Shown one piece after another: positions 6,001 to 32,494 of a stretch of 32,494 nt of DNA. Numbering within the stretch: the stretch's first letter is position 1; the number at the start of each line of letters is the position of its first letter. Source of the DNA: an uncultured Olsenella sp. (GTDB lineage Bacteria > Actinomycetota > Coriobacteriia > Coriobacteriales > Atopobiaceae). The stretch lies in NCBI GenBank assembly GCA_949287335.1, contig CASEGE010000284.1, positions 1 to 32,494 of the forward strand, written 5' to 3'. Under the pieces are notes generated by a model, which was given only the letters and a program-made list of their open reading frames with translations, made no database searches and was not told the origin of the DNA. The position numbers were made by a program, and so were the translations under genes.

Positions 6001-9000
6001 AACCCACTCCTCGCTCACCGAGTAGTGGACGACCACGCCGTCTCCCGTGTACTTGGGAAGGCCGTAGATGTAGGTGACGTTCTTCTCGCCAGAGTCGCCG
6101 CTTCTGTCAACGGGAACGACAAGCGTCTTGCCGCCATCCTTGACCGTTGCCCCCGTCAGCGGCTGGTTGCCGGCCTCGTTGGAGAAGAGGGGGATGTTGT
6201 TGCCGTTGGTCAGCTGGACAAATGCCTGGTCCGTGTCCTTGTTTACGGAGAAGACTGCGCCCGCGTCGTCGACCGTGAGCTCGAAGTTGGCCTCGGGGCG
6301 CTTCTCCTTGTCCGCGCCCTCGTCGAGCCAGGTCTTCTCAACGGACAGATCAATCAGGCCAATGCGGCGGTTGCTCACCGAGAGCAGCTGCTTACCGAAG
6401 GGTCCGGGCTGGTCCTTGGAGTCGGTGTAGGTCACCTCGTAGACGTGGTCGTTCGTGGCAACACGCTCGTTATCGGCGTTGATGTAATCGTCATTCCACG
6501 CCGTGTTGATCCAAGAAGCATCGTAGTCCGCAGGCTGAGTATTGCTCCACGCGACCGCCTCGCTGTAGGTCATGACCTCATACTCGGTCCCATCAACATC
6601 GACAAGTTTAGTCTCGACAATATCGAGATCGCTGGTCTTGAGATCTCCCACGGGGATGCTTACCTCATAGAACCAGGCGTTACTTTCCGAGAGCTTAACT
6701 TCGGTGAACACGTGACCCTCTTTGAAGGTGGTTTCGCCGTCCTTCGTAGTGAGGTCACGCGCGGCGCGCACCTCAACCACGCAGGTGAGACGATGCGCGG
6801 AGTCATCGCCGTCGACCCAGTCCTTGGTGATGTGGAACTCGGTCGCCTCACCGGGGCCGTAGGAGTTCCTGAACATTGTGAGGTGTCCCTCGGCATCGTA
6901 CTCGCGCACGGTATGCCAACCCTCAACGGGCTCCTCAACAACACGGTAGGTATAGCGGCCGCCGCTCTCCGTGTAGAGGGGCAGATCGAGAATCTCGAGA
7001 TAGTATGGGCTCGTCTCCTGCACAGTAGGACCAGAGATGCCCAAGTCCTTATTTGTTATCACGGTTGCTTGCTCGTCCACGATGCCGTCGAGCGTGTAGG
7101 AGCCGACTTTGTTGCTTCCCTGGTAGAGAGTGACCGTCACCTTGTCCGCACGGGTCTTGTCGGGCTGCTTGCGGTCGTAGACGGGATCGCCATTATCGTC
7201 GAGCTCAGGCTGCTGCCAGAGCTTTTCAACGTATTCGTCAGTAGTGTTGTCAAAGGAGTTGACAATTTCGCCCGTCTCCTCGTCGACCGTTGAGGTGAAC
7301 ACGACTGAGTCAGTCGTCTCAGAATTGCCCTCGGTGGACTTCAAGGAGAGCGTAAAGGTCGCCTCCGTACCATCCTCGCTGGCTTTGAAGTTAGTCTCTG
7401 CGCCGCCCTGTTTTACATCGGTCTCCACCCAGCGGTACTCGTACTCACGGCCAAGCTTGTCGTAGCGCTCTTCTTCAGAGGAAATGGTCTGCGAGAGCTG
7501 CTCGGCGGTGAAGCCGTTGAGCTCTTGGGTGCGAACCGTCTCCCATTCTGCATCCTCGACACCCTCGGGACGACGCTGGAGGGTGAACTCGCAGGTGACG
7601 TCCTTGAGCTGGTCGGCAAAGGCGTCGACCTTCCAGGTCTTGACCTGTTCGACCGTGATGGTCTCCTCGAGGCGGTTGCTCACAGTACCGCCGTTATAGG
7701 TGAGGCGGTCCGTGGTGGGACGGGTATAGCCATCGTCGAAGACCTCGGTTTCGGTTCTGTCGGCGTTGTAGTAGTTCGGCTTCGTGGTCGTAACGTTACC
7801 GTCCGAGTCCACGCTGCCGAGCACCGTCTCATAGTCCTCCGGGACGGTCTCCTCGCGAACACCGTAAACGAAGGGGTAGCCGTCGGAGTCGTATTTGGGA
7901 AGGCTGAGGCCCTCGTGCTGCTCGAGAAGCAGGGCACCGAGGTCGACCGTGTTCCCCTCTATTTTTGAGGGGTTGAAGGTGATGGTGACAAACGCACCGG
8001 CGTTGTCAGCAACCTGCGAGGCAGTCGCCGCACTTCCGTTATTGGAGTAGCGCCAAAGGGTGAAAGTGATTTCCTCGTCCGGGCGAGCATTGTCTGCGTT
8101 GCTGTTATCGAGCCACTGCTTGGTGGCATCAAAGCTCGTAGTGCCCGTATGGGTGAGCGTCACGGTGCCGTTGTTGTAGGCATGCGTCGTGTCAGAGCCG
8201 TGGTTGGACGAGGCACTGTTATTGAAGGTCGCAGCGTAGTAGTCCTTGTATCCGCCAACGGGCGTCTCATCGCCTCCGGTGTATTCGAGGCGATACTCAA
8301 TCGGCTTTCCGTCGACGGTGTAGCGGGGAAGGTTGCCAGACAGTATCCCGCTGTTTGAGTCATCGTCAGACGGGTTCCAGTTAAGCCCGCCACCAAGGTC
8401 GGTGTTTATCGAACTCTGGTCGGTAATCTTGCCGACCTCGAAGCGCATTCCCTCGACCCGCTTGTTGTCGACAACCGCCTGGAGGAAAAGATACTCCCCC
8501 GTTTTCTTTCCGAGCTCCTCAAACTCCTCGTTGCCGATCTTGCCGACGATATTGAATGTCTGCTCAGCCAGCTTCTGGAACGTCTGGTTGGCCGTGACGA
8601 CATCGCTGCCTGCGGTAGTGGCAACCTCAGGCGCGCCGCTCCTGAAGTAGGAGTCGCTGCTGTACTCGTTCTCATCGACAAGGCGCCAGGTCACCTCGCA
8701 GGTGACATCCTTGCGCTCCCACAGCGGCTCACCGGTCTCGGTATCGTAGAGCTTGTTTCCCTCGTCATCCGTCTTCTGCTCATAGCCAATCTCCGTCACA
8801 GACGTGGGGAGTCCGGAGACGGAGGCGGTGTACTCGTTGACCATGGAGGCAGCGAGGGAGACAGCGGGGGGATTGTCCTTCCAACCCAGCTGCATCTCCG
8901 CATTATCTGCGGTGTACACGTACTCTGTGCCATTGATAGTAAAGTAGAGCTTGTAGCCAGCCTGAAGCGTATCGGTGCTGGGACGGTCGGACTCGTTGTT

Positions 9001-10707
9001 GTCCGCCCACGTGGTCTTTATCGTCAGCGAGGCATTGAAGTTCTCGGGGCTCTTGGCGCCGTTGTCATCGGGTTTGCTCTCATCGGAAGCGTTGACAAGC
9101 GGAAGCAGGCCGTTGATGGAACTCAGTGACGAGATATCGGTTGCGGTCTCGTCGTCGGTCTGGTCGTCCTTCTCGTCTTCCTGCTCCTGAGGCTCCTCAG
9201 GGGCGGGAACCACGACACCGAGCTGATCCGCGAGCTCTGCCATACCGGGAAGCACGAGAGTTGCCTCCTGCTTGACGTTCTCGTCGTCGGCCTTGGTCTG
9301 GAGGGTCCACGTGAGCTCGGAGGCTTCGTCGGTCAGGAGCTCGGCCTTTACGGCAACCTTGAGGTCGATGGAGGCGTCGAGCTTCTCAATCTGCTCCTTG
9401 CCCTCGGTCTGGGCAGCGGGAACGGTCCCCTCGGTGGGGTTGCCCACGTAGTAGGCAGTGGTGTTCTCAGTGTCGGCCGTCTCGACGGGCTCCATGAAGG
9501 TCACCTTGAGCATGGTGCCCTCGTTCTCGATGGTGCCCTCGGCAATCTTAAGGGTGGTGGGGTTGCCCTCTTCGTCCGACTGGAAGATGTCGAAGGAATG
9601 CTTGTCGTTGTCGACCATCTGGTCGGAAATGGTCATGCCCTCCGGAAGGGTGACGGTAAAGGAGTCGCCGGGGAGCACGACGGTGTGGTTGCCCGTGTCG
9701 ACGTCGTCAACGGATGGGTTGAGCTGGAACGTAAGGTCGAGCGTGGCATCAAGCTGCTCAGAGAGGAGAGTGCGGAGAACGTCTGCCGGAGTTGTGGTGT
9801 CGGCTTCGTTGGTCGTTTGGTCGTTTTCGGTTTGGTCGATTGCGTTGTCGGTTTGGTCGGTCGTGTCTTCGGAGTCTGCCTCGGTCTCATCGCCGGCGTT
9901 AGCCTCGGCCTCGTCTTCGGAGTTATCGGTGGTGGCCTGAGCCTCATCGACGATTGCCTTGAGCGCCTCGGTGTCAAACGCAAGGCCGTCGGGCGAGCTC
10001 AGCGTGAGGTTATCGGTCTTTCCTGTCCAGTCCCAGGTTTCCACCTCGACGGAGTCGGCGTCGGTCTCGGTGGTGGTGTTGGGGTCCGGGGTTTCGGTCT
10101 CGGCGGTGTTGGGGTCCGGGGTTTCGGTCTGGGTGGTGTTGGGGTCCGGGGTTTCGGTCTGGGTGGTGTTGGGGTCCGGGGTTTCCGGCTCGACAGGATC
10201 AGAGGTGTCAGTCTTGTTGGGATCGGAGGTTTCAGCGGAGGTTTCGGCCTCAGTCTCAGTGGTGGTATTGGGGTCGGGGGTTTCGTCCTTGTTGGGGTCC
10301 GAGATATTTGTGTCTCCGTCGCCCTTTTCAGCATTGTTGGGCTCAGAACCCTTGTTGGAATCCGTGGGGTCAGAAGAATCGCTGGGGTCTTTTGGATCTC
10401 CAGGCTCATTGGTGTTTTCGGGGTCATTCAAGTCGGTGGGATCATCGGGATCAGTATTGTTGTCCTTCTGACCATCAACGTTGTCGTCAACCTGCTCGGT
10501 TCCCGGCTGGTTGCCAAGCCCATCGGCAAGCGTCTCAGCAAACGCGGTGGACATGCCGTTGTTGAAGAGCGACTCAACCGTCAGGATGAGCGCAAGCGCA
10601 AACGCAAGCGCCTTCTGTGCTGTGGTCCGCTCAGCATAGGACGAGGGTTTGGTACCTCGCTCGAGTGCTCGCGTTTCCGTCCTAGAGCTATACGACTTCC
10701 GACCCAT
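1..10707 (-). CDS. Giant Cna_B/SpaA-repeat surface adhesin (3' end outside window)
   Basis: Open for 3569 codons from the ATG at 10705-10707 to the window edge with no stop. A GAGGTG ribosome site (10712-10717) lies five bases before the start. Residues 1-56 form a long secretion signal: a basic start, a hydrophobic stretch near residues 32-43, and a likely cut after AFA near residue 55. A Thr/Asp/Glu/Pro-rich linker (about 57-310) follows, then a beta-rich domain (about 315-470) and a second acidic linker (about 500-530). From about 9.0 to 2.8 kb I read about thirteen modules of the Cna_B type, each opening with a Lys-x-Trp-like strand (KKWDD, VEKTW, ITKDW) and closing with YEYRVVE-like strands. 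From 2.8 kb to the edge there are about eight SpaA-like modules (LPGAEFTL, GYELAG, YVLTETKAP). Such modules form intramolecular isopeptide bonds in stalks of wall-anchored adhesins and pilins. The expected LPXTG anchor would lie beyond position 1. The ligand cannot be told from sequence. GC is lower than in the housekeeping genes. Confidence 0.93.
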   Translation of the reverse strand, partial: MGRKSYSSRTETRALERGTKPSSYAERTTAQKALAFALALILTVESLFNNGMSTAFAETLADGLGNQPGTEQVDDNVDGQKDNNTDPDDPTDLNDPENTNEPGDPKDPSDSSDPTDSNKGSEPNNAEKGDGDTNISDPNKDETPDPNTTTETEAETSAETSDPNKTDTSDPVEPETPDPNTTQTETPDPNTTQTETPDPNTAETETPDPNTTTETDADSVEVETWDWTGKTDNLTLSSPDGLAFDTEALKAIVDEAQATTDNSEDEAEANAGDETEADSEDTTDQTDNAIDQTENDQTTNEADTTTPADVLRTLLSEQLDATLDLTFQLNPSVDDVDTGNHTVVLPGDSFTVTLPEGMTISDQMVDNDKHSFDIFQSDEEGNPTTLKIAEGTIENEGTMLKVTFMEPVETADTENTTAYYVGNPTEGTVPAAQTEGKEQIEKLDASIDLKVAVKAELLTDEASELTWTLQTKADDENVKQEATLVLPGMAELADQLGVVVPAPEEPQEQEDEKDDQTDDETATDISSLSSINGLLPLVNASDESKPDDNGAKSPENFNASLTIKTTWADNNESDRPSTDTLQAGYKLYFTINGTEYVYTADNAEMQLGWKDNPPAVSLAASMVNEYTASVSGLPTSVTEIGYEQKTDDEGNKLYDTETGEPLWERKDVTCEVTWRLVDENEYSSDSYFRSGAPEVATTAGSDVVTANQTFQKLAEQTFNIVGKIGNEEFEELGKKTGEYLFLQAVVDNKRVEGMRFEVGKITDQSSINTDLGGGLNWNPSDDDSNSGILSGNLPRYTVDGKPIEYRLEYTGGDETPVGGYKDYYAATFNNSASSNHGSDTTHAYNNGTVTLTHTGTTSFDATKQWLDNSNADNARPDEEITFTLWRYSNNGSAATASQVADNAGAFVTITFNPSKIEGNTVDLGALLLEQHEGLSLPKYDSDGYPFVYGVREETVPEDYETVLGSVDSDGNVTTTKPNYYNADRTETEVFDDGYTRPTTDRLTYNGGTVSNRLEETITVEQVKTWKVDAFADQLKDVTCEFTLQRRPEGVEDAEWETVRTQELNGFTAEQLSQTISSEEERYDKLGREYEYRWVETDVKQGGAETNFKASEDGTEATFTLSLKSTEGNSETTDSVVFTSTVDEETGEIVNSFDNTTDEYVEKLWQQPELDDNGDPVYDRKQPDKTRADKVTVTLYQGSNKVGSYTLDGIVDEQATVITNKDLGISGPTVQETSPYYLEILDLPLYTESGGRYTYRVVEEPVEGWHTVREYDAEGHLTMFRNSYGPGEATEFHITKDWVDGDDSAHRLTCVVEVRAARDLTTKDGETTFKEGHVFTEVKLSESNAWFYEVSIPVGDLKTSDLDIVETKLVDVDGTEYEVMTYSEAVAWSNTQPADYDASWINTAWNDDYINADNERVATNDHVYEVTYTDSKDQPGPFGKQLLSVSNRRIGLIDLSVEKTWLDEGADKEKRPEANFELTVDDAGAVFSVNKDTDQAFVQLTNGNNIPLFSNEAGNQPLTGATVKDGGKTLVVPVDRSGDSGEKNVTYIYGLPKYTGDGVVVHYSVSEEWVGNHGDYEKSVTEDAYEIGNRHFHDKQTFSAENKRQGTTEVQFYKEWNDTYTYESGSRPDIYLTLYRRGSDGKLESVDGYVHFLWEPNEEAAQDHQGGTSSNLAAQYDQICKITGLQKYDESGYEYEYFASETMSSDGTSLGYAPVEFKGYAGATLGKGDVVDTETGDDADVTSTGSDYAVRSGNVFVNSLTGELEVNGEKLWTNIPGNYDLSDLELPKVTVFIQRRYVGEEWPELYVDYDEETQSLTPRTGAVAYQDGLTPDKDDPKRFTFNITEDIDGEKLPRYDSEGKIYEYRAIEVITGLIGSDASMAIEQIEETNFADDEHVAEDGEQVYDIRHGVTGSFFITNAFNPTEGNLTVKKFFTGDRASGDKYPDITYTLYRRYDRDGSEKPGGILEGLISFFTGGAGETMSKPEKVTSVTLTGEEIAQKVDQSGSFTYTFDGLDMWAPNGSDYEYYVVESTIDGYTTTVVLGNANSELDVTDEPVTAPNGTDVEGACSPAAVDTNGNSVVAKDDTRPDITFANKYDYEKLELTGSKKWDDYGDAFNVRLTTKDITLTVKRTSDSGQVEELTEGEGYELKWTFTTGDEWSYTISGLEQWAPDGSAWNYEVTESLIPAAADFYRIIDGTAKGEGTKEGAEGSWTGSLDDLENGLKGSAEVEKKWYGVGADGNPVQNADDEWGFRPKSVEVELQARYRTGENDPWSAWLNASDAFTTALGSGFSLTGFDATQTLDEDGGWDYQWNTVPIFAKRSAGDSTLYEFQYRVIETKVGDTGINIAKQDDGAIQYAPQAESYVGTSETTLNDDSGMLSSTLVENFLLTTDLKVTKVWDDDDNIWGLRDEAFDQYHNPIWTVTYQLQVSSDDGKTWTEVKNATGQISHDVTGSLTEGAETFNTNSYTFRNLPAYDKKGNELIYRAVEAVPGGYDVTGALSENVGEGNAVVDFDRVEGSEERSQTYTNTLFTTELEGTKAWDDYGTGLKPSLPSDGSVPSVKMTLERSNDDGKTWERATYDDGTLMQPAWSDANNDGVWEWEYTGLPGKDGEGNTYEYRASEDEGSVPGFYPTVDKDYSKDITNVATRFTLDKVSDSKDKDKDEVNDVELSVMSTNKQTVYAVWKRDASGNETSFVWQNGKAASEVWTGGNIKSGSADTTGAVEMKDTNAGYIVGLKAGTYKIVETGELPEGYARAADTNLTIGKDGSVNSTKPGENAEEITVTDQVFDGYFTFTKALGTADGKKLEGVTFYLYRVNDDGSEVLLAKGLTTDANGVFDSSKATDVEFEDGVDLGVGGDERKSLADGLQAGSYYLLETTTTDDAYYPSGDELKFPFTIDQETNHGAANKVTVKDNATSNPGNTLLNTPFQVTVSLPKYDADAENKAAISDAEFKLQYHNGKDWVDVATGLKTDKSYTLTLDDGNGYKAAGADKPANGTAGVLQLTLNMKGEYRLVETANQGYEVPVNDGEKFVVTFELENVDHDTEFVYSLADANVQTDGTAKGQLGAAAENFKLDANGVPNERLTGKATLTKTDDEGNVLQGVVFSLQKEVAGDVWTDVKTSLTTDGNGQITVDDLEWGTYRFVETGVKDGYVGHVNDKPVTSQEFTISRTTVESEQRVTAENAATRLRIKKTDASGNVLSGKAAFVIEGELANGEDSVTVSTVNGVAELRDALLIAGKPYTLRETEAPAGYELAGSVTFTVDKNGNVVNPGTATGGSGSYAVSKDGGINLTTATDTQISITLEKDGNKPQTSSVVNPYADAEFTISGTFVDGTQLDGNRNLVKRTDENGKIDLTGVLIANETYVLTETKAPKGYELIEGSLVFKVKPDGTIETMGQVPVGYGVIGDSLVIKATDPSIEVSLAKVDENGKLLAGVTFEITPKEGSAWADGTTGTRVFANNDATAYSIDSASLVAGNTYVLSEVVAPNGYEIAGKVEFTVGDDGTVTLGTHTGGTGDYAVSEDAASGVVTITATDKQTSVTLIKVSTNGGAQLPGAEFTLEPASQSGSFAN
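10081..10200 (-). repeat. 30-bp tandem repeat in adhesin linker (PDPNTTQTET)
   Basis: Four tandem 30-bp units start at 10081, 10111, 10141 and 10171. The first three are near identical and the fourth diverges after about 24 bases. In the adhesin frame each encodes a ten-residue unit close to TETPDPNTTQ. Being in frame, gain or loss of a unit changes stalk length without breaking the gene. Confidence 0.9.
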
Positions 10708-14520: not shown

Positions 14521-14553
14521 TTGTGACACTGGTGACAGGTTAATTTGTCACAT
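14521..14553. repeat. 33-bp palindromic repeat, family B copy 1
   Basis: Ends TGTGACA/TGTCACA with the family core AACCTGTC on the minus strand. It lies 21 bases after the stop of the HTH gene, in a spacer between converging genes. Confidence 0.8.
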
Positions 14554-14597: not shown

Positions 14598-14630
14598 CCT
14601 GACAAAGTGCCTCCGTCCCCTTTTGTCAGC
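14598..14630. repeat. 33-bp palindromic repeat, family A copy 1
   Basis: CTGACAAA pairs with TTTGTCAG around the conserved core CCTCCGTCCCC. Its last base is the first base of the HepT stop codon (14630-14632), so it begins directly at the 3' end of that gene. Confidence 0.85.
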
Positions 14631-15351: not shown

Positions 15352-15384
15352 CCTGACAAAGTACCTCCGTCCCCAATTGTCAGG
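15352..15384. repeat. 33-bp palindromic repeat, family A copy 2
   Basis: AACCTGACAA (15350-15359) pairs exactly with TTGTCAGGTT (15377-15386) around CCTCCGTCCCC. The left flank TTCGACCACGTTGCCAA resembles 14581-14597 and 13883-13899. Confidence 0.88.
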
Positions 15385-15390
15385 TTGCTG

Positions 15391-15423
15391 ATGTGACAAT
15401 TTAACCTGTCCCAATTGTCACAT
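15391..15423. repeat. 33-bp palindromic repeat, family B copy 2
   Basis: ATGTGACAATT (15391-15401) pairs exactly with AATTGTCACAT (15413-15423), with an 11-base loop holding AACCTGTC. It is the most perfect family B copy and starts 7 bases after family A copy 2. Confidence 0.88.
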
Positions 15424-15426
15424 TAC

Positions 15427-15463
15427 AAAAAGGGGCGCGCCTGGTGGGAGGCCAGGCGCGCCC
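15427..15463 (-). terminator. Strong rho-independent terminator
   Basis: GGGCGCGCCTGG (15433-15444) pairs exactly with CCAGGCGCGCCC (15452-15463), a 12-bp stem with a 7-base loop. On the minus strand it runs into TTTTT (15427-15431). It closes the GH3/membrane-protein transcription unit 27 bases after its stop. Confidence 0.92.
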
Positions 15464-15489
15464 GAAGGGGGAGGAAGGCGTGAGTTGCT

Positions 15490-17076
15490 TTACGCCAGGG
15501 TGAACGAGTACTCGCCCACCTCGTAGGAGGTGTTGCCCGTGAAGCCGGCAACGACCTCGGTGTGCGCGGGGATCGTCAGCGTATCGCCGTCGATCGTGGC
15601 CTCAAACGCCTCGCTTCCGTTCATGGTGACGGTCAGCGCGGTGTCGCCAGCCTCGACGATGGTGCCCGTCTCGACCACGGTGCCGTCGGCGTTCATGACG
15701 GTGAGGGTCTTGTGCGAGTAGTCGACAATCAGCGTGGACTCGGTGTCCGTGACCTCGCCGTTGACGATGAGGCCATAGGTGCCGGTGTAGGTATCGGCAA
15801 CGAGGTCCTCGACGGTCACGTCAAAGGTCGCGGTGGCGCCCAGGAAGGAGGCTGTCACGGTCTTGGTGCCGGCGGTCTCGGAGTCGTAGCCGCTGTAGCT
15901 CACGCGGCCGCCCCAGATGCTCTCCTCGGAGCCGGAGGCGCGCACGGCGGTAACCGCAAGCGCGGACGGGTCGAAGGAATCGCCGGTGTAGAAGGTGCCA
16001 AGCTCAGACGTGTCAATGGTGAGGCTCTGGGCCGGGGCGTACTGCTGACCGTAGAGGTTCATGTTGCGCGTCATGAAGCCGCCGTAGAGACCCAGGCTGA
16101 AGCTCGCCTCCCAGCTGTAGTCACCGTGCTCGGTGTCAAAGATGTGAATGTCGGTGTCCTCGCCAGTGGCGGGGTCGGTCGCTCGGGTGGAGCCGTCGGC
16201 GCTCTGCGTGCCGGTGAAGTGAATGACGAAGTCATCCTCGCCGTCGGCATTGGTGGTGTACCAGTAGCCGTACACGTAGGTGACGCCCGGCGCAACGGAG
16301 GTGTTGGGGCCGCTCAGAGAGCCGTACATGGAGCCGTCCTTGCAGAGGTACATGTCCATGCAGGCGGGATCCACAGAAGTGCCAAAGCCCTCGGTGTACT
16401 GGCCCTCAAAGAAGTACGCAACCTCGCCGTTGGCTTCCTTGGCCTCCCAGTCCGCGCGAGAGATGGCGGTGAGGTCCTCGATGGTCATGTCGGCAAACTC
16501 GTTGTCGGCAAGCGCCATCGTAGCGGCCTCGGATCCGCCGGCCTCGCCGGAGCCGGAGCCGGAGCCACCGGAGATGCTACCGCCAAAGGTCACGTAGCCA
16601 ACGCCCACAACCGCGGCAACGAGGAGCACGGCGGCCACGGGAACCATGCGCTTGGAGGCGGCACGGTCCTCGGCGGCGACGGGCTGCTCGAGGAAGCAGG
16701 CAATCACGCAGAGCAGGCAGCTCACAAGGGCGCCCGCCATGTACATGACGCACAGGCCCGCGTTGCCACCGGCGTAGGTGACCTGGTTAATCACGTCGGC
16801 AAAGACGAGGTAGAGCTGGGTCACCATGAGGTACAGCGCAACGCCGTACACCACGGTCTGGATAAGCGCGCCAAAGCGCACGGGGACGAGCGTCAGCGCA
16901 ACGGCCACCGCAACGCCCGCGACGAGCGCGACGCCGGGCATGATGCCCGTGTGGCCCAGAGGGGCGGCCTCAGCCTGCGTCGCGAAGAACACGACGGCAG
17001 TCACCAGCGCAACGAGCGCCGCCACCAGGCAGAGCAGGCTGCCAAGGCCCCTGCTCTTCATACGTTCAACCAGCAT
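15490..17076 (-). CDS. Polytopic membrane protein with Ig-like ectodomain
   Basis: A 528-residue protein with about five hydrophobic helices in the first 160 residues (near 11-32, 45-62, 68-95, 107-128 and 143-160). A Gly/Ser-rich linker with GSGSGSGEAGGSE follows (about 165-180), then a large extracytoplasmic part. Residues about 340-425 read like a bacterial Ig-like domain of the Big_3 kind (YTGDSFDPSALAVTA, then TKTVTASFLGATATFDVTV). The last 100 residues form another beta-rich module. The start has a GGAGGTG site and lies 15 bases after the GH3 stop, so the two are co-translated and probably work together at the membrane. The ectodomain might bind carbohydrate or help assemble the hydrolase. 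No catalytic motif was seen and no named family is certain. Confidence 0.8.
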   Translation of the reverse strand: MLVERMKSRGLGSLLCLVAALVALVTAVVFFATQAEAAPLGHTGIMPGVALVAGVAVAVALTLVPVRFGALIQTVVYGVALYLMVTQLYLVFADVINQVTYAGGNAGLCVMYMAGALVSCLLCVIACFLEQPVAAEDRAASKRMVPVAAVLLVAAVVGVGYVTFGGSISGGSGSGSGEAGGSEAATMALADNEFADMTIEDLTAISRADWEAKEANGEVAYFFEGQYTEGFGTSVDPACMDMYLCKDGSMYGSLSGPNTSVAPGVTYVYGYWYTTNADGEDDFVIHFTGTQSADGSTRATDPATGEDTDIHIFDTEHGDYSWEASFSLGLYGGFMTRNMNLYGQQYAPAQSLTIDTSELGTFYTGDSFDPSALAVTAVRASGSEESIWGGRVSYSGYDSETAGTKTVTASFLGATATFDVTVEDLVADTYTGTYGLIVNGEVTDTESTLIVDYSHKTLTVMNADGTVVETGTIVEAGDTALTVTMNGSEAFEATIDGDTLTIPAHTEVVAGFTGNTSYEVGEYSFTLA

Positions 17077-17091
17077 CTGTTCACACCTCCG

Positions 17092-20058
17092 CTAGTTCTT
17101 CTCGTTAGGGTTCTTGCTGTCGGAGCCGTCCGCGGCGCCTTCCTTGCGGACGTTGACGGCATACATGACCGCCGCGCCCACGGTTGCCGCCGCGAGGACG
17201 CCGTCGACCCCGTACAGGGCCATCTTCCACCACGGCATGGAGTCCTCGACCACGGTGTCCGCGGAGAGCGTGCCCATGGAAGACTGGAGCATGACGTAGT
17301 AGAGGTAGCGGTTGGAGTCGATGACCTTCTGCAGCAGGTCGCCGTCATCGGTGGACTCGATGAGCTCGCCCACCTCGGTGGGACGCGCGGTGTCGAGGCA
17401 GAAGATGTTGTTGCCGGCCATGAGCATCTCGGGCGCCGAGGAGTACTCGGAGGCGGTGAGGGCGTCATCGATGATGAAGCCCTGGTAGTTCCACTCGTTG
17501 CGTAGCATGTGCTCGATGGGCTTGCTCGCGGCGGCATACATGAGGCCAATGCGGTTGTAGGACGTCATGACGCCAAGGGACTCGCCCGCGGCCAGCGTGC
17601 CCTCGAAGGCACGGGTGTAGATCTCGCGGATGGACTGCTCGTTGGCAAAGGTGGCAATGCCCTGGCGGCCAGCCTCCTGCTCGTTGAGGAAGAAGTGCTT
17701 GATAGTGCCGATGAGGCCCTTGCTCCTCATGCCGGAGATGGCGTTCTTGGAAGCCCAGTAGCCAACCATCGGGTCCTCGGAGAAGTACTCGGAGGTGCGG
17801 CCGGAGTACGGGGAGCGCAGGATGTCGGTGGCCGGCGCGTAGGCGATGGGGATGGAGGCGTAGAGCGCGTCCTCGCCGTACATCTGGCCAAAGCGATACT
17901 GGAGCTCCGGGTTCCAGGTGGCGGCCACGATGGAGAGGGTGGCCCAGCCGGTGCAGTTGCGGCGGTCGCCGTACTTGAACTGGCCGTTCATGCCCTCGGG
18001 GCCGTCAACGATGGTGCAGCCGGGCTTGTTGACCGCCTTGACGGTCTTGATGCCCTTGGAGTCGCCCATGTTGATGAGAAGGTCGTCCAGCGTGAGCTGG
18101 GAGAGGAACTCGTCCCACTTGGGGTCGTCGAGCTCCACGCCCTTCATGTCGAGGAAGTTGATCTTCTCGTCAAGCTCCACGCCGAGCTGGAAGTCGGAGA
18201 CGCTCTTGGCGTCGGCGGCCTTCTGGTAGAACTGCATGTCGAGGCCATCGTACATGGCGTCGTTGACGGTGAGCGTGGCAACCTTGACGGGATAGGTGCC
18301 CTCCCAGTCACTGCGGGTGAGGTAGGTGATCTTCTGGTCCTCGTTCACCCAGTAGTTGATGTCGGCGTCATCGTAGATGTTGGTGACCTCGGCCTCCGCG
18401 TTGTACGGGGACTGACGGTACTTCTCGGTGTCCACGTCGGTGTTCTCGGGCGTCCACACCTTGGCGGCGTCGACGTTGCCCTCGACGGTGTCACCGTTGT
18501 GGTCGAAGAGCTTGCCCTCGACCTCGGCGCCGCACTTGAGCGCGAGGACGTTGTTCAGGGCCTCGTGCGCGCCGTTGCCCACGGCAAAGTAGTAGTCGCC
18601 AGCGTCGAGGATGTAGCCCTTGGCGGTCTTGGAGTCATACGAGGCCAGCAGGTAGGCCGGGAACTCGATCGTCACGCTCTGCGAGTCGCCGGCAGCAACG
18701 TCGATCTTGTCGTAGGCAAGAAGCTGGATCGCGGACTTCTCCACGCCGTTTGCCTTGTCGTAGTCCGTGTAGGGGGACTGCACGTAGATCTGGACGCTTG
18801 CCTTGCCGTCAACGTCGCCGGTGTTGGTGACGGTTGCGGTGGCGGCAAACGTGTCGTTGGCCGCGTCGTAGGCCACCTCGTCGAGCGTGTACTCGTAGGT
18901 GGTGTAGGAGAGGCCAAAGCCAAACGGGAAGCAGACCTCCTTGGCGTAGTTCCAGCCATCCTTGGAGGCCTTCACGCCGGCCTTGGAGTCGGCGTTGCCC
19001 TGGCCGAGGATGCAGTCCTCATAGCGGGTCTCGTAGTAACGATAGCCCACGTAGATGCCCTCGTTGTAGGAGACGAAGACGTCGCCTGCGGCGCGCGGGG
19101 CCTTGGAGCCGTAGTCAAACGGGTGCAGGCCGAAGTTCTCCGCGGAGGGAGCGGAGAGCGAGTTGGCCACAAAGGTGGCCTGCGTGTGACCGGAGGGGTT
19201 GACCTCGCCGGTGAGCACGCGCACGGCGCCGGGCATGCCGTAGAAGCCGGGGTTGCCCACCCAGAGCACGGCGTCCACGTCGTAGTCCTCGAGCCAGCCC
19301 AGCTCGAAGGCAAAGACGGAGTTGAGCAGGACGACGGTCTTCTTGAAGGCGCCGGACTCCTTGATGACCTCGAAGATGGCCTTCTCGTTGTCGTCGAGCT
19401 CGAGCATGCGCTTGCCGGCCTCGTTCTCCATGGCGAGGTCCTGGCCCTCGGTCGCAAAGCGAGAGAGGGTGACAAACGCCACGTCGCCGTAGCCGGAGAA
19501 GGAGCCCTTGACGTCGTCGCTGAGGACGGAGGCGTCGTACTCGCCCACGTTGCTCACGGTACGGCCCGCGGGCTCGGCGGCGTTGGCGTAGGCGTCGAGC
19601 ATGGTCTCGTTGACGTTGAAGCCGGCGTCCTTGAGGGCGTCGACGGGCGTCTTCTGGTAGTCCTTGTTGGTGGAGGAGCCGCCAGCGGTGCTGCGGAAGA
19701 CCGGGTCGATGCTGCCGCGGCCAAAGGCCGTGACGTTGCGCTCCTCGGCCGCAAGCGGCAGGGCGTTGTCCTTGTTGTAGAGAAGGACGCTGCCCTCCTC
19801 CTCCTCGCGCTCGCAGAACTCGTACGCTGCGGTGATGTAGTTGTTGAAGCCCTCGTCGGAGAGCGAGCCGTCTGCGGTGAACTCGGTTCCGCCATAGCCC
19901 GTGCCCGACTCGCTCACACCCAGCGCGTGGTTGATCTCACCCTCCTGCTGGAAGGCGACGGTCGATGCCGACGCGGCAAGGCTCGTGAGCAGTGCCCCGG
20001 CGCCCGCGGCACCGAGCCAGCGCCTGGTCACGTTCCTGGGCGCTTTTGGTTCTGTCAT
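17092..20058 (-). CDS. GH3 family glycoside hydrolase, reversed domain order, membrane-anchored
   Basis: A 988-residue protein of glycoside hydrolase family 3 (beta-glucosidase or related exo-hydrolase). The start is the ATG at 20056-20058 behind a GGGAGG site. The N-terminus has a signal-like stretch with a twin-arginine-like RRWLG. The order is the reverse of the common one. The alpha/beta C-domain comes first (GSVLLYNKDNALPL near residue 90), then a fibronectin III-like part, then the TIM-barrel domain from about 690 on, with DGPEGMNG, GRTSEYFSEDP and KHFFLNEQE. The catalytic nucleophile should be the second Asp of GFIIDDALTASEY; the usual following Trp is Ala here. A hydrophobic helix near the C-terminus (YGVDGVLAAATVGAAVMYAV) followed by a basic tail anchors it. 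Reversed GH3 enzymes are known from rumen bacteria such as Ruminococcus albus. The substrate sugar cannot be assigned. Confidence 0.88.
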   Translation of the reverse strand: MTEPKAPRNVTRRWLGAAGAGALLTSLAASASTVAFQQEGEINHALGVSESGTGYGGTEFTADGSLSDEGFNNYITAAYEFCEREEEEGSVLLYNKDNALPLAAEERNVTAFGRGSIDPVFRSTAGGSSTNKDYQKTPVDALKDAGFNVNETMLDAYANAAEPAGRTVSNVGEYDASVLSDDVKGSFSGYGDVAFVTLSRFATEGQDLAMENEAGKRMLELDDNEKAIFEVIKESGAFKKTVVLLNSVFAFELGWLEDYDVDAVLWVGNPGFYGMPGAVRVLTGEVNPSGHTQATFVANSLSAPSAENFGLHPFDYGSKAPRAAGDVFVSYNEGIYVGYRYYETRYEDCILGQGNADSKAGVKASKDGWNYAKEVCFPFGFGLSYTTYEYTLDEVAYDAANDTFAATATVTNTGDVDGKASVQIYVQSPYTDYDKANGVEKSAIQLLAYDKIDVAAGDSQSVTIEFPAYLLASYDSKTAKGYILDAGDYYFAVGNGAHEALNNVLALKCGAEVEGKLFDHNGDTVEGNVDAAKVWTPENTDVDTEKYRQSPYNAEAEVTNIYDDADINYWVNEDQKITYLTRSDWEGTYPVKVATLTVNDAMYDGLDMQFYQKAADAKSVSDFQLGVELDEKINFLDMKGVELDDPKWDEFLSQLTLDDLLINMGDSKGIKTVKAVNKPGCTIVDGPEGMNGQFKYGDRRNCTGWATLSIVAATWNPELQYRFGQMYGEDALYASIPIAYAPATDILRSPYSGRTSEYFSEDPMVGYWASKNAISGMRSKGLIGTIKHFFLNEQEAGRQGIATFANEQSIREIYTRAFEGTLAAGESLGVMTSYNRIGLMYAAASKPIEHMLRNEWNYQGFIIDDALTASEYSSAPEMLMAGNNIFCLDTARPTEVGELIESTDDGDLLQKVIDSNRYLYYVMLQSSMGTLSADTVVEDSMPWWKMALYGVDGVLAAATVGAAVMYAVNVRKEGAADGSDSKNPNEKN

Positions 20059-20250
20059 GTGACCTCCCTTTCCCTGATACTCCTCGGAGTCGCTCGCCGC
20101 ACGTGAGCTGTGCACCGAACACGCACAGCGAGCGCCGTTACGGTCACGATATTTTTCAGGGGGGAGCGCGGCAACGACGCTGGCACAATTGTCGAGAAAC
20201 GCGACCCAATCTACCGACGCGCCCGCGTGGCGCCGGTGTGACGCCGGTAA

Positions 20251-20283
20251 CTGTGACGCTAGTGACAGGTTGAATTGTCACGT
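20251..20283. repeat. 33-bp palindromic repeat, family B copy 3
   Basis: GTGAC/GTCAC ends with the core AACCTGTC on the minus strand. It starts 22 bases after the stop of the histidine kinase gene, in the 246-base spacer before the GH3 gene. The rest of that spacer (20059-20250) holds no gene and no clear promoter, although one for the GH3 gene is expected there. Confidence 0.8.
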
Positions 20284-20304
20284 CGGCGCCACCGACGCCC
20301 GCTG

Positions 20305-21588
20305 CTAGCGCAGCTGCGCGAGGGGGAGGGCCACGACGAGATAGAAGACGTGGTCGCGCACAAAGAACTCCGCCGTGCCACCGTACTTCTCGGCAATGCC
20401 CTTGATGCTCTTGACGCCAAAGCCGTGGTTGGCGGCGTCGTCCTTGCTGGTGACGAGCGAGCCGTCCTCCACCACCGGGTCGGCCGGGGTGTAGTTCTCC
20501 ACGCGGATGACGGCCATCTCGCCCGAGCGCGCCAGGTTGAGGGTGATGGTGCGCCGCGAGCGGTCCTCGACCTTCTCGAGGCACTCTATGGCGTTGTCGA
20601 TGGCGTTTCCGAAAAGCGAGTAGATGTGGAAGCTCTTCATGGCGCCGAGCGCCTCTCCGTCCGCGGAGCAGACGAGCTGGATGCCCTTCTCGGCACAGGT
20701 GGCCGCCTTCTGCGTGATCACGATGTCAAGCGCCTTGTTGCCTGTGAAGTAGCGCAGGTTGAGGCTCCGCATCTCGTCCTCCAGCCCGGCGCGCTCCTCG
20801 GCCGGCACGCGGGAGTACTGCTGCTTGAGGTCGTGGTAGCGGATGTTGATCTTCTCCATGTCCTCCTTGGCCTGCTCGTACTGGAGGCGATCCTTCTCGA
20901 GCAGGAGCTCAAGTGCGCTGTTCTCGGTCTCAAGACGCTTGACGCCGCAGTTGGTGAGCTCGAGCGAGAGGACGGTCACGGCAAAGAGCACGCAAAACGC
21001 GCCGAGCGAGAGGTAGCTCGAGAGGTAGGTGGGCGCGGTGGCGTCGAGGTTGTCCTCAAGAAGAGAGCTGAGAAAGACGGCCACCACCAGGAAGAACGCG
21101 GCAAAGATGACGGTGCACACGCTGTTGAACATGAGCTGGCCGTCCTTGAGGAGGGTTCGGGTGAAGTAGAGGTAGAGCGGCACGCACACCAGGGCATTTG
21201 TCACAGCGAGAAGGACGAGTGCCGTCCAGGACGGGATGGGTACGTGCTGCGTGTAGAGGGCAATGACCACCATGTAGGTGAGCTTGCTTGTGATGTGCTG
21301 CACGGTGTAGGCGCAGGTTGCCGTAAAGACCGCGTGGACCGTGGAGCAGCCAAAGCAGAGCAGCACCCACAGAAAGACGAGCACGACAAAGGCCGTGAGA
21401 TTGAAGACCGCGGGCTGGCCGGTCATGTAGAGCAGCTCGGAGAGGACCAGAAGCGCAATCGTGCCAAGAAGGGCGCGCGGGGCAAAGTGCGCGCGGCGCT
21501 CGTCCCAGGGCGCGAAGAGGCACGCGCCCAGCAGCAGGCCGAGAATGACCTGGTTGGAGTTGAAAAAGTCGAGAACGAGGGAGATCAC
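20305..21588 (-). CDS. AgrC-like GHKL sensor histidine kinase
   Basis: 427 residues starting at a GTG (21586-21588) whose GTGA overlaps the stop of the response regulator gene. Residues 1-215 hold about six or seven hydrophobic helices, the peptide- or signal-sensing domain of this group. A coiled coil (about 215-260) carries the phospho-accepting His252 in NIRYHDLKQQY. The C-terminal ATPase domain has the N-box NAIDNAIE (near 318) and the glycine box GFGVKSIKGIAEKYGG, typical of GHKL (HATPase_c_5) kinases that pair with LytTR regulators. Members such as AgrC sense autoinducing peptides, but no peptide gene is visible here. Reading could in principle continue upstream inside the regulator gene in this frame, but the helix content and coupling fix the GTG start. 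Confidence 0.88.
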   Translation of the reverse strand: MISLVLDFFNSNQVILGLLLGACLFAPWDERRAHFAPRALLGTIALLVLSELLYMTGQPAVFNLTAFVVLVFLWVLLCFGCSTVHAVFTATCAYTVQHITSKLTYMVVIALYTQHVPIPSWTALVLLAVTNALVCVPLYLYFTRTLLKDGQLMFNSVCTVIFAAFFLVVAVFLSSLLEDNLDATAPTYLSSYLSLGAFCVLFAVTVLSLELTNCGVKRLETENSALELLLEKDRLQYEQAKEDMEKINIRYHDLKQQYSRVPAEERAGLEDEMRSLNLRYFTGNKALDIVITQKAATCAEKGIQLVCSADGEALGAMKSFHIYSLFGNAIDNAIECLEKVEDRSRRTITLNLARSGEMAVIRVENYTPADPVVEDGSLVTSKDDAANHGFGVKSIKGIAEKYGGTAEFFVRDHVFYLVVALPLAQLR

Positions 21589-22346
21589 GGGTGCGGCGCC
21601 TCCCAGTCCTGCGTGACCAGGTGCCGCGCAAACTCGCGCTTGAACGAGTCCTTGTAGGTGCGTCCGATGGGCAGCACGCGTTCGCCGAGATAGACGTCCG
21701 CGCCGTTGACGGCGGTCACGTAGTTGAGGTTGACGAGGAAGCTCGCCGAGCAGCGGGCAAAGCCATAAGGGGTGAGCTCGGCCGCGAGGTCGCGCATGGA
21801 GCCGCGCGACTGCAGGACCGCCTCGCGCCCGGACGCGCGGTCGCGGACCACGTAGAGCAGGTTGTGCTTGCGAACCTCGATGCAGGCCAGGTTTGCCACG
21901 TCCACCACGCGCGAGGCGGCGCCGTCCTTGACGACGATGCGCTTGCCGGACTTGGAGCGCAGGCGCGTGCGCACCGCCACGGCCTTGAGCGCGCGCTCGA
22001 GGTAGAGCTGGAAGGGGTACCACTCGATGGGCTTCACGAGAAAGCCCAGGGCAGAGACCTCGTAGCCGTTGACCGCAAACTGCTGGAGGTTGGTGCAGAA
22101 GATGATAACGAGGCTCTGGTCGGTCTGGCGAATCGTGGCGGCGAGCTCCATGCCGGACATGCCGGGCATGTCGATGTCCAGGTAGAGGATGTCGAACAGA
22201 TTGTCCTTGTCGGCAAGGTATGCGCCAGCGCCGGAGTACGAGCGGACCTCAAACTCCAGGTTCTTCTCGGCGGCAAAGCGCTCTATGGCCTCGCTGATCT
22301 GGCGACGGGCATCCGCCTCGTCGTCGACGATTCCAATCCTTACCAT
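21585..22346 (-). CDS. LytTR-family response regulator
   Basis: 253 residues. The receiver domain is at 1-120, with the acidic pocket D8-D9, phospho-acceptor D57 (YLDIDMPGMSG) and K105 (FLVKPIE). A LytTR DNA-binding domain covers about 145-245 (VVDVANLACIEVRKHNLLYV, FARCSASFLVNLNYV). LytTR regulators bind pairs of short direct repeats upstream of virulence, bacteriocin and cell-surface genes. The start has a GGGGAGG site. The gene is first in a two-gene unit with the kinase. Its nearest likely targets are the GH3 gene downstream or its own promoter, but I found no clear LytTR repeat pair. Confidence 0.92.
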   Translation of the reverse strand: MVRIGIVDDEADARRQISEAIERFAAEKNLEFEVRSYSGAGAYLADKDNLFDILYLDIDMPGMSGMELAATIRQTDQSLVIIFCTNLQQFAVNGYEVSALGFLVKPIEWYPFQLYLERALKAVAVRTRLRSKSGKRIVVKDGAASRVVDVANLACIEVRKHNLLYVVRDRASGREAVLQSRGSMRDLAAELTPYGFARCSASFLVNLNYVTAVNGADVYLGERVLPIGRTYKDSFKREFARHLVTQDWEAPHP

Positions 22347-22404: not shown

Positions 22405-22437
22405 CCTGACAATTGGGGACGGAGGCGTTTTGTCAGG
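22405..22437. repeat. 33-bp palindromic repeat, family A copy 3
   Basis: AACCTGACAA (22403-22412) pairs exactly with TTGTCAGGTT (22430-22439). Compared with copies 1, 2 and 5 it lies in the opposite orientation, with the core read as GGGGACGGAGG on the plus strand. It is followed by TTT on the plus strand. Confidence 0.88.
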
Positions 22438-26649: not shown

Positions 26650-26682
26650 CCTGACGGAATGCCTCCGTCCCCAATTGTCAGG
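26650..26682. repeat. 33-bp palindromic repeat, family A copy 5
   Basis: CCTGAC (26650-26655) pairs with GTCAGG (26677-26682) around CCTCCGTCCCC. It ends 3 bases from the dnaB stop codon. Confidence 0.83.
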
Positions 26683-29055: not shown

Positions 29056-30108
29056 CTACGCGGTACCCTGCGCGCCCGAGCTCTCGCCACGCGGAAGGTG
29101 GCGAAGGTTTGCCCAGACGTCAACAAGGCCCACGACGGTCAATACGACGAACTGTACTTCGAGATAGAGCGCCAAGGCGCCGAGAAGGGCCTTGGTGAGC
29201 GCGCCGGACCCGTTCCGGTTGAGAAACCAGACGAGAACGGCGAGCCCCTGCGCGGCAAACGCAAGCCTAAGGCCCATGACCACGTTAGCCGAGGCCATGA
29301 GCGCCGCGTCAGCGGCAGGTCCGTCGACGGTGAGGCCAAAGGCCAGCACCGCCGCCGCGGCCACGAGCACGGCTACGACCCAAAGGGGCAGGTCGTAATC
29401 GACAAGCCTCGGGACCGCGATGGTCCTCTCGGTGGTCTTCCTCGCGGCCGCCCCCGCGCCGATGACGGCGAACAGGTACGACCCAAAGGCCGAGACCACG
29501 TAGGCCGTGGGCCACAGGACGCTCAGGACCGAGCGAACCTGCTGCACCAGGGACGCAGCCGTGACGGAAACGCTCGAGAACTCCTCAGCGTAGAGGCTGA
29601 GAAGAGACTCCACGTCCGCCGCCACCGTGGTCCCCCTCGTCGCCGCAACGAGCGAGTCCGCACCAAAGGTGCACACCGCCGCGCCCGCGACGACAAGGCA
29701 GCCAAGACCCGGGGTGAGCCTGCCGGAGAGAAGCGCCTCGACTGCCACAAGGGCAACGAGACAGCTCGCGATGGCGGCCACCACCGAGGACGCGCCGAGC
29801 GAGAAGCTCAGGGCCACCGCAGCGACAAGCGCCGCTGCTGCGCCCATGAGCCTGCCCCTCGTCCCACCGCAGTCAGCGGCGGAGACGTAGCCGTACCCCA
29901 CGAACACCGGGGCGAGGAACGAGAACGTCGAGGACGCAACCGCTCCCCCCAGCGCGCAGAAGAACAGCCCGGAAGGAAGCGAGAGGGCCGGTCGGCTCCC
30001 CTGGGGGCCACCCACGGGGACGATTCCGCGGCGCCCTTGCTGCGCGCCGTCCTTCTCGCACGCCCCCTGCGGAGAGGGCGGGAACCCGTTTGTGGGACAG
30101 TCGCTCAT
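29056..30108 (-). CDS. DUF2232 (YybS-like) membrane protein
   Basis: 350 residues. A hydrophilic N-terminus (about 1-42) is followed by some eight hydrophobic helices through to about 325, typical of DUF2232/YybS integral membrane proteins. In Bacillus subtilis yybS also lies near rplI and dnaC (dnaB helicase), next to gdpP. Here it sits between rpsR and rplI with gaps of 29 and 43 bases, so it is in the same transcription unit. Its role is unknown. The ribosome site is weak (an AGG a few bases before the ATG). Confidence 0.8.
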   Translation of the reverse strand: MSDCPTNGFPPSPQGACEKDGAQQGRRGIVPVGGPQGSRPALSLPSGLFFCALGGAVASSTFSFLAPVFVGYGYVSAADCGGTRGRLMGAAAALVAAVALSFSLGASSVVAAIASCLVALVAVEALLSGRLTPGLGCLVVAGAAVCTFGADSLVAATRGTTVAADVESLLSLYAEEFSSVSVTAASLVQQVRSVLSVLWPTAYVVSAFGSYLFAVIGAGAAARKTTERTIAVPRLVDYDLPLWVVAVLVAAAAVLAFGLTVDGPAADAALMASANVVMGLRLAFAAQGLAVLVWFLNRNGSGALTKALLGALALYLEVQFVVLTVVGLVDVWANLRHLPRGESSGAQGTA

Positions 30109-31585: not shown

Positions 31586-32494
31586 CTAGAGGCTCTCGTC
31601 CGTGATGGGGTTTTGCGAGTCCGCGTCCTTCTCGCCAGCCGGGGACACGGGGTTGGTGGATTGAGACTCTGACTGGGACGTAGGGTGCGGCTGTGGTGCG
31701 GGCTGGGGGTCCGGCTGGGGTGTCGGCTGGGGTGTCGGCTGCGGCGCGGGCTGGGGGCCAGGCTCCGGCGCCGCTGTCTGGGGGCCCGCCGCCGGCTGCG
31801 GCTGGGGCTGCCAGGTGGCGTACGTGGGCGGCACCTCATCCCTGGGATCGGGGATGGTGGGCGGAAGCGGGTCCTCGTCGCGGCCCCACGAGGGCACGTC
31901 AAACTGACGCATCCAGAGACCCGCGGCCGTGGTCCCAAGCAGCATGAAGATCACGCTCACAAACCCCGTGACGAGCCCCATCACCACAAGGGCGGGAAGG
32001 GCCACCGAGAGCAGCGAGAAGATCGCCTGGACGAGCATCTGTGCCTGGGTGGTCTCGGAGATGAGGCCGTCGTAGCGGATGACGTAGTCGATGACGCTCA
32101 AGAGCTGCGGAATGGTGCCGACAAACACCGTGAGCAGGATCACGAGCGAGACGCCGCCCACCATGAGCCAGCCAATCACGCCGATGCCGAACACGCGCAT
32201 GAGTCCGCCGAGGTCGTGCGAGATCATGGCACGGATGGCCGAGACCCTAAAGCCCGCGCCGAGCTTCTTGTAGATGGTTGCGCGGAGCTCAGCGACGAGG
32301 ATAACGGTGCCCATGAAGATGTTCACGATCGACCATGCAAACGCAAGCAGGCCGCCGAGCAGCGGAATCGCGTCAAGCACCGCGGTGACAATCGCGGAGA
32401 CAAAGCCCCATGCCAGGATGATGACGAAGGCGCGGGCGCCGCTGCAGATGCACTCGCCCACGCGGACGTTTCTCTGCTTGGGCGCCGCGTTGAC
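31586..32494 (-). CDS. DUF4013-like membrane protein (5' end outside window)
   Basis: At least 302 residues. The frame is open to the right edge, reading VNAAPKQRNVRVGEC before the first possible internal start, so the true start is probably outside. About five hydrophobic helices lie in the first 215 residues, with a glycine-rich membrane core (FVSAIVTAVLDAIPLLGGLL, LGTTAAGLW). The C-terminal 80 residues are Pro/Gln-rich, with tandem PQPTPQPTPQPDPQPAPQ units, then an acidic-polar tail. The layout resembles DUF4013 proteins of Gram-positives and archaea, of unknown role. It is upstream of rpsF but separated from it by a promoter. Confidence 0.7.
   Translation of the reverse strand, partial: VNAAPKQRNVRVGECICSGARAFVIILAWGFVSAIVTAVLDAIPLLGGLLAFAWSIVNIFMGTVILVAELRATIYKKLGAGFRVSAIRAMISHDLGGLMRVFGIGVIGWLMVGGVSLVILLTVFVGTIPQLLSVIDYVIRYDGLISETTQAQMLVQAIFSLLSVALPALVVMGLVTGFVSVIFMLLGTTAAGLWMRQFDVPSWGRDEDPLPPTIPDPRDEVPPTYATWQPQPQPAAGPQTAAPEPGPQPAPQPTPQPTPQPDPQPAPQPHPTSQSESQSTNPVSPAGEKDADSQNPITDESL

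Follow-up and report, generated by a model that had tools for sequence, protein, structure and literature searches.

A conserved four-gene cassette of a LytTR two-component system, a domain-permuted GH3 glycosidase and a membrane protein in Actinomycetota and Bacillota

The cassette and its proteins

We analyzed a 32,494-nt contig (the window, taken throughout at its full length) from an assembly of an uncultured Olsenella sp. (GCA_949287335.1; 317 contigs, completeness 88.65%, contamination 6.25%), in which four genes encode a two-component system of the LytTR type, a domain-permuted glycoside hydrolase of family 3 (GH3) and a membrane protein termed P4. Together they form a genuine conserved unit, which a few bacteria of two phyla carry along with several related copies. 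A preliminary description of this DNA had placed four co-directional genes here, and this was borne out: all lie on the minus strand and have Pfam domains. The response regulator (RR; 21585..22346, 253 aa) combines a receiver (Response_reg, E 6.8e-16), with D57 as the probable phospho-acceptor by motif, and a LytTR DNA-binding domain (E 6.2e-9). Its gene overlaps by 4 nt that of a GHKL sensor kinase (HK; 20305..21588, 427 aa, GTG start), in which around six hydrophobic helices without a sizeable ectodomain precede the HATPase_c_5 (GHKL) domain (E 4e-21) and an HDLK motif is found at H252. Simple motif patterns matched 30 kinases and 29 regulators among the 39 comparable modules described below, so motif conservation is claimed for the window proteins only. 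After a gap of 246 nt follows the GH3 gene (17092..20058, 988 aa) and, 15 nt further, that of P4 (15490..17076, 528 aa).

The GH3 has its two halves in swapped order, with Glyco_hydro_3_C at residues 91-339, an Fn3-like domain at 422-495 and Glyco_hydro_3 at 711-915, both GH3 domains exceeding the curated Pfam cut-off, and it bears hydrophobic segments at its N and C termini. Such permutation is common among its relatives: the 75 two-domain GH3s in the annotated loci comprise 61 permuted and 14 canonical proteins, the 61 including near-identical orthologues from separate genomes. Eleven of the 61 were scored without a nearby LytTR gene within the available sequence, among them that of locus L029, whose regulator exists and was dropped by the retrained gene caller. 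Alignment to PDB 2x40 places D865 on residue 242 and E204 on residue 458 (counted from the alignment), which we take to be the nucleophile and the acid/base, respectively. The nucleophile column holds Asp in 60 of the 61 permuted GH3s, the single exception (L067) having this domain split over two overlapping open reading frames, and the acid/base column holds Glu in all 61. Because these catalytic carboxylates are kept, the permuted GH3s look like active enzymes rather than decoys. A C-terminal hydrophobic helix is present in 48 of them.

The best named GH3 equivalog for the window enzyme, exo-alpha-(1->6)-L-arabinopyranosidase, scored 218 bits against a cut-off of 1300, far too low to name a substrate, and structure prediction was of low confidence (mean pLDDT 29). 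The GH3 beta-glucosidases PDB 5wug (955 aa) and 5k6l (921 aa) resemble it in the late position of the N-terminal-type domain, as expected for the same domain order; residues 681-865 and 676-865 of the window GH3 match residues 567-747 of 5wug and 523-709 of 5k6l, respectively. Those two are known simply as beta-glucosidases, whereas the window GH3 has hydrophobic segments at both ends and falls far below every named GH3 equivalog listed.

P4 consists of a four-helix membrane module, a fifth helix, a beta-rich ectodomain with a Big_3 domain (residues 361-422, E 4.3e-11) beyond the five hydrophobic helices, and a C-terminal beta domain. Its structure model is weak overall (57.5) and better only from around residue 350. 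The fold matches are weak, the one with E <0.001 having a TM-score of 0.12, and a lipocalin-like or NHBA-like barrel is only hinted at by the model. Seven Oscillospiraceae loci have, directly behind GH3, a gene for a protein of 112-138 aa with two to four hydrophobic helices; within a set of 37 sequences, these proteins match a profile of P4 residues 1-165 at E values between 2.4e-8 and 3.2e-4. Comparison of the P4 membrane part with six of these small helix proteins by hhalign gave a probability of 96.4% (E 1.3e-9, 29% identity over 131 columns). A lipoprotein-like gene of around 380-405 aa (by eye) comes after the small helix gene in the same seven loci; homology of the P4 ectodomain with these lipoproteins of around 395 aa was not supported (hhalign probability 1.8%, six compared). 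Since the small helix gene is separate elsewhere and the lipoprotein is not detectably related to the P4 ectodomain, P4 may, judging from these alignments, be a fusion of a four-helix protein with another surface domain. A gene for P4 or for a four-helix protein directly follows GH3 in 10 of the 39 modules.

Orthologues and linkage of LytTR and GH3 genes

A P4 pattern scan with one genome per species (84,980 species), which reaches close relatives only, retrieved six loci: O. uli An733 (L026), O. pullicola (L027), O. profusa An794 (L028) and three metagenome-assembled genomes named Pseudoflavonifractor (L029, L031) and Galloscillospira (L030), both Oscillospiraceae of the phylum Bacillota. The order RR-HK-GH3-P4 is found in all five loci whose contig is long enough (L027-L031). 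In O. uli An733 the cassette appears to be split over contig ends: a GH3 end lies with P4 at the edge of one contig, and another contig opens with a LytTR gene and part of a GH3. Within the class, full-length P4 is present in three of 396 genomes, with weak partial matches in five more. A gene for the endospore protein SASP lies upstream of the cassette in L029 (E 2.3e-30) and L031 (E 1.1e-30), so both are Bacillota contigs rather than misbinned Olsenella; for L030, no such marker was demonstrated.

Identity between the window and L031 is 76% for GH3, 59% for HK and 55% for RR, and among the 19 Oscillospiraceae modules compared L031 is the nearest to the window for each of the three proteins. 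With the gene order kept in both phyla, this suggests that the cassette was probably transferred between phyla as a unit. GC content gave no clear mark of a foreign origin for the cassette. Beyond the regulator lie purD and purA, and purD also neighbours the cassette in L027 and L028. At the other end of the window, a minus-strand open frame (1-10554, 3518 aa) that carries SpaA and Cna_B stretches, five of each, resembles a giant surface-protein gene cut by the contig end.

Linkage of LytTR and GH3 genes extends beyond this cassette. Counting LytTR genes that lie <=6 kb from a two-domain GH3, and taking uniform placement as the expectation, we found 11 of 16 linked in the window's own genome (1.54 expected) and 28 of 86 in 19 genomes of the genus (3.49 expected), a count that omits 11 same-order genomes, two fragment rows and the NagZ-like single-domain GH3 row of each genome (19 rows). 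Three Oscillospiraceae genomes, with two NagZ-like and three fragment rows excluded, had 13 of 18, 4 of 7 and 12 of 15 LytTR genes linked (1.66, 0.22 and 1.48 expected), or 29 of 40 against 3.4 in total. Within the genus, the linkage is confined to five of the 19 genomes (11/16, 5/9, 7/10, 2/5 and 3/8); the remaining 14 have no GH3 near any of their 38 LytTR genes. The preliminary description had staked its proposal on the pair and the GH3 gene not occurring apart in most relatives: the genes do stay together in the carriers, but among the 19 genomes of the genus only these five have any LytTR-GH3 pair.

Among the loci retrieved, 39 modules of RR, kinase and permuted GH3 passed our length limits. 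RR and HK come first and are co-directional with GH3 in 21, whereas 13 are divergent, three are convergent and two have GH3 first. The regulator and the kinase covary closely across modules (r 0.94, and 0.87 with close pairs removed). Six complete permuted modules are found in the window's own genome, among its 11 LytTR genes with a nearby GH3, and they presumably serve different glycosides.

A second type of LytTR-linked GH3 (L032, L045, L048, L093 and other Olsenella loci) has the canonical domain order and a twin-arginine (Tat)-like or lipoprotein-like start (TRRNFLAA..GC), often with an adjoining gene for a possible lipoprotein of 130-155 aa. Some modules (L036, L063, L084, L097 and L099) adjoin esterase or alpha/beta hydrolase genes, which hint at acylated glycan substrates.

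DNA between the kinase and GH3 genes

The alignment of the six orthologues revealed a conserved putative promoter block in the HK-GH3 gap (20146..20215, minus strand). It comprises candidate regulator repeats at 20211-20203 and 20190-20182, 21 nt apart, and, read by eye from the alignment, a -35-like TTGCCG (20174-20169) separated by 17 nt from a -10-like TATCGT (20151-20146). Upstream of their target promoters, LytTR regulators recognise pairs of direct repeats of around 9 bp at a spacing of around 21 bp. The hexamers of L029-L031, also read by eye, are TTGACG and TATCAT with a 17-nt spacer. Over the best 42 nt, the window shares 32 matches with L029 and 31 with L031, compared with at most 25 and 26, respectively, in 30 mononucleotide shuffles. 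A terminator-like hairpin with a T-run (by eye) lies between HK and GH3 in L029-L031, which suggests that GH3 and P4 form a separate transcript in these loci. An extra GC-rich hairpin was also observed in the gap of L029, L030 and L031, upstream of the conserved leader hairpin described below. In the window, the gap lacks an ATG codon in all three frames of the coding strand.

Between the putative promoter and the ribosome-binding site of GH3, the six orthologues have a hairpin with a covarying stem (20093..20132, minus strand), whose loop GGUGCACA (20116-20109) is present in five of the six and is replaced by AGUGCGCA in L030. Twelve of its 16 pairs are altered on both sides. Such changes fill 22 cells, whereas shuffles average 7.6 and none of 500 came as high, in a set of six sequences of which L029 and L031 are nearly alike. 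Stem letters are changed yet paired in 82.3% of cells, whereas slid controls are 30-49% paired. Folding z-scores of the leader were -1.74 in the window, -0.76 in L027 and -4.49, -3.19, -2.30 and -3.45 in the other four. The structured leader is a candidate new leader RNA. Palindromic loops such as GUGCAC can kiss with a second copy; the loop GGUGCACA includes this palindrome, and self-pairing of the GUGCGC in L030 is still possible through wobbles.

The hairpin was rejected as a general feature: among 64 sources, the intended matches were only the six orthologues from which the model was built, and of the other matches three were these near-palindromes read on the opposite strand and five had E >=0.7. 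A search of 61 family genomes, under stricter filters and with the other carriers outside the sample, gave one match, in the window's own genome. The hairpin 10-mer occurs at three other places of that genome, none on a comparably long hairpin. No known RNA family was found in the region, the best Rfam match reaching 22.2 bits against a gathering threshold of 58.8 (E 0.71).

The cassette had been described as bracketed by a strong terminator and by repeat clusters, of which the terminator stands. This intrinsic terminator after P4 (15433..15463, minus strand; 12 pairs, 11 of them GC, followed by CTTTTTG) ranks strongest among six terminator-like sites, a number close to the shuffle mean of 5.9, so that the scan by itself proves nothing. 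The repeat clusters, however, are largely copies of a genome-wide palindromic element and no mark of this locus. This element, TGACAA-N4-CCTCCGTCCCC-N3-TGTCA, resembles repetitive extragenic palindromes and lies at 14600-14628, 15354-15382, 22407-22435 and 26652-26680; it has 50 matches in the genome (<=2 mismatches), several as close inverted pairs, against none for a reversed control pattern. A second intergenic repeat of around 32-36 nt, with GTGACAGGTT..AATTGTCAC or its complement, is found at 14522-14553, 15391-15422 and 20252-20287, the last within the HK-GH3 gap.

Possible function and relation to known systems

The interpretation that we consider reasonably probable is a self-contained sense-and-trim module, in which a dedicated glycan-responsive two-component system drives its own tethered exo-glycosidase. 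The membrane kinase would respond to a sugar-related surface cue and phosphorylate the LytTR regulator, which would bind the block upstream of GH3 and activate the putative promoter dedicated to GH3 and P4, with its structured leader. Held outside the membrane by its terminal helices, GH3 would cleave terminal sugars, by the chemistry usual in its family, off a glycoside of dietary, host or microbial origin. P4 would be its membrane partner, in which the beta-rich ectodomain probably serves to bind the substrate or the cell wall. The earlier suggestion of a sensing and trimming unit is partly supported, by the gene order across two phyla and by the linkage of 11 of 16 LytTR genes to GH3, a glycan being the putative signal.

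Several results weigh against this interpretation. With close pairs removed, covariation of GH3 with HK falls from r 0.77 to 0.35 and that with RR from 0.71 to 0.27, so that the enzyme seems to have been exchanged more frequently than the RR-HK pair, and enzyme and sensor seem, on these protein comparisons, to have been re-paired over time. L029-L031 are close relatives and count as nearly one comparison. Over the best 42 nt, L030 shares 29 matches with the window against a shuffle best of 28, and O. profusa (L028), where the hairpin is retained and the promoter block is not, shares 25, equal to the shuffle maximum of 25. A generic promoter scan found none in the HK-GH3 gap. Where the preliminary description had proposed to look for LytTR repeat pairs, between 20059 and 20250, the best 9-mer direct repeat has a 21-nt spacing, but it was reached in 438 of 1000 column shuffles at free spacing, which is not significant, and in 56 of 1000 at 20-22 nt. 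Two of the six hairpins (window and L027) are not clearly better folded than shuffles. Finally, the four genes include neither a transporter nor any further glycan gene, the nearest identified neighbours being purD, purA, NUDIX and NTase-binding genes (membrane proteins at 29056-29847 and 31586-32494 were not identified).

This lack of a sugar transporter is one of the points that fit a different, distinctly less probable explanation, namely enzyme-coupled sensing, in which the tethered GH3 would be part of the receptor, the kinase would detect a cleavage product or the substrate-bound state of GH3, relayed through the membrane helices of the enzyme and P4, and nutrition would be secondary. 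Also in keeping with it are a kinase of around six hydrophobic helices without a sizeable ectodomain, the adjacency of kinase-regulator pairs to GH3s with intact catalytic residues, most of the permuted ones (48 of 61) carrying a hydrophobic helix at the C terminus, and the P4 or four-helix gene next after GH3 in the 10 modules noted above. However, the covariation of GH3 with HK is weaker than direct contact predicts, and 12 linked GH3s are canonical, none with a C-terminal helix and several with Tat-like or lipoprotein-like starts. In a fuller and comparably doubtful version, the active tethered permuted GH3 might make or present the ligand for the ectodomain-less kinase, with P4 or the four-helix protein as coupler, the new leader RNA dimerising or being bound in trans through its GUGCAC loop, and the module being traded whole between phyla.

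A self-directed role strikes us as unlikely, in which the system would sense the state of the envelope and trim glycan on the surface of its own cell, much as LytSR-type systems are connected with autolysis. In its favour are the predicted surface location of GH3 as well as P4 and the frequent control of envelope functions by LytTR regulators, but a patchy spread (full-length P4 in so few of the class genomes, yet in two phyla) argues against it, and several paralogues per genome would fit diverse external substrates better.

An Agr-type peptide quorum-sensing system that controls a GH3 by coincidence is highly improbable. The preliminary description had called the pair AgrC-like, which holds for the architecture only: like AgrC/AgrA, it combines a GHKL kinase with a polytopic membrane part and an HDLK motif with a receiver-LytTR regulator. 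The models, however, score far below their cut-offs (AgrC 21.9 of 500 bits, AgrA 29.6 of 400 bits), and the neighbour is a glycosidase. A peptide signal is without support since AgrB had no match in this 88.65% complete genome, although 14 control genomes also lacked a match over the cut-off, so that the sensitivity of the search is not demonstrated; no extra gene of at least 50 aa lies between the four genes in the orthologues, shorter peptide genes not having been searched systematically. Chance neighbourhood without a functional link, with which the 14 genus genomes lacking linkage would agree, is hardly credible given how far the linkage exceeds expectation in both phyla and how the four-gene order persists between them, with RR, HK and GH3 at 55-76% identity.

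To our knowledge, glycan sensing by Gram-positive gut bacteria outside the well-studied polysaccharide utilisation loci is largely open. The cassette is a defined case of a regulated enzyme unit common to Actinomycetota and Bacillota, together with a candidate structured leader RNA, and with up to 13 LytTR genes per genome near a GH3, promoter-reporter work in a small number of strains could assign substrates to many orphan kinases. The literature searched, which mostly does not cover subscription journals, yielded no experimental work on a LytTR-kinase-GH3 module of this sort; one candidate report (PMC5945754) was set aside, as the mentions of LytTR and of glycoside hydrolases in its available part are unrelated.

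A polysaccharide utilisation locus is defined by a transporter and several glycoside hydrolase genes, and the cassette falls outside this definition. According to the accessible part of its description, the Gram-positive arabinoxylan utilisation locus Ros-7 of Roseburia likewise places a LytTR regulator with a kinase beside glycoside hydrolases (PMC5320581), but it has GH25, GH43 and GH51 with ABC and GPH transporters, whereas the cassette has one GH3 and no transporter. The closest likeness is in Butyrivibrio proteoclasticus B316, where, in the part of the 2010 paper available, three LytTR regulators are each reported close to a secreted GH3 with a C-terminal transmembrane helix, an arrangement also found in the window, and carbohydrate sensing was suggested for these pairs (PMC2914790). 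To have called the present proposal a new hypothesis was therefore too strong. In contrast to the window, those pairs belong to a rumen species of Bacillota and lie within polysaccharide utilisation loci, and that part of the paper makes no mention of P4, a promoter block, a leader hairpin or permutation, the comparison being by description and not by sequence. As the LytTR-GH3 adjacency was already noted there, the cassette is a new, better-defined variant of this association and not a wholly new one; what is new here is the P4 membrane half as a separate gene elsewhere, the promoter block across phyla (O. profusa excepted) and the covarying leader hairpin.

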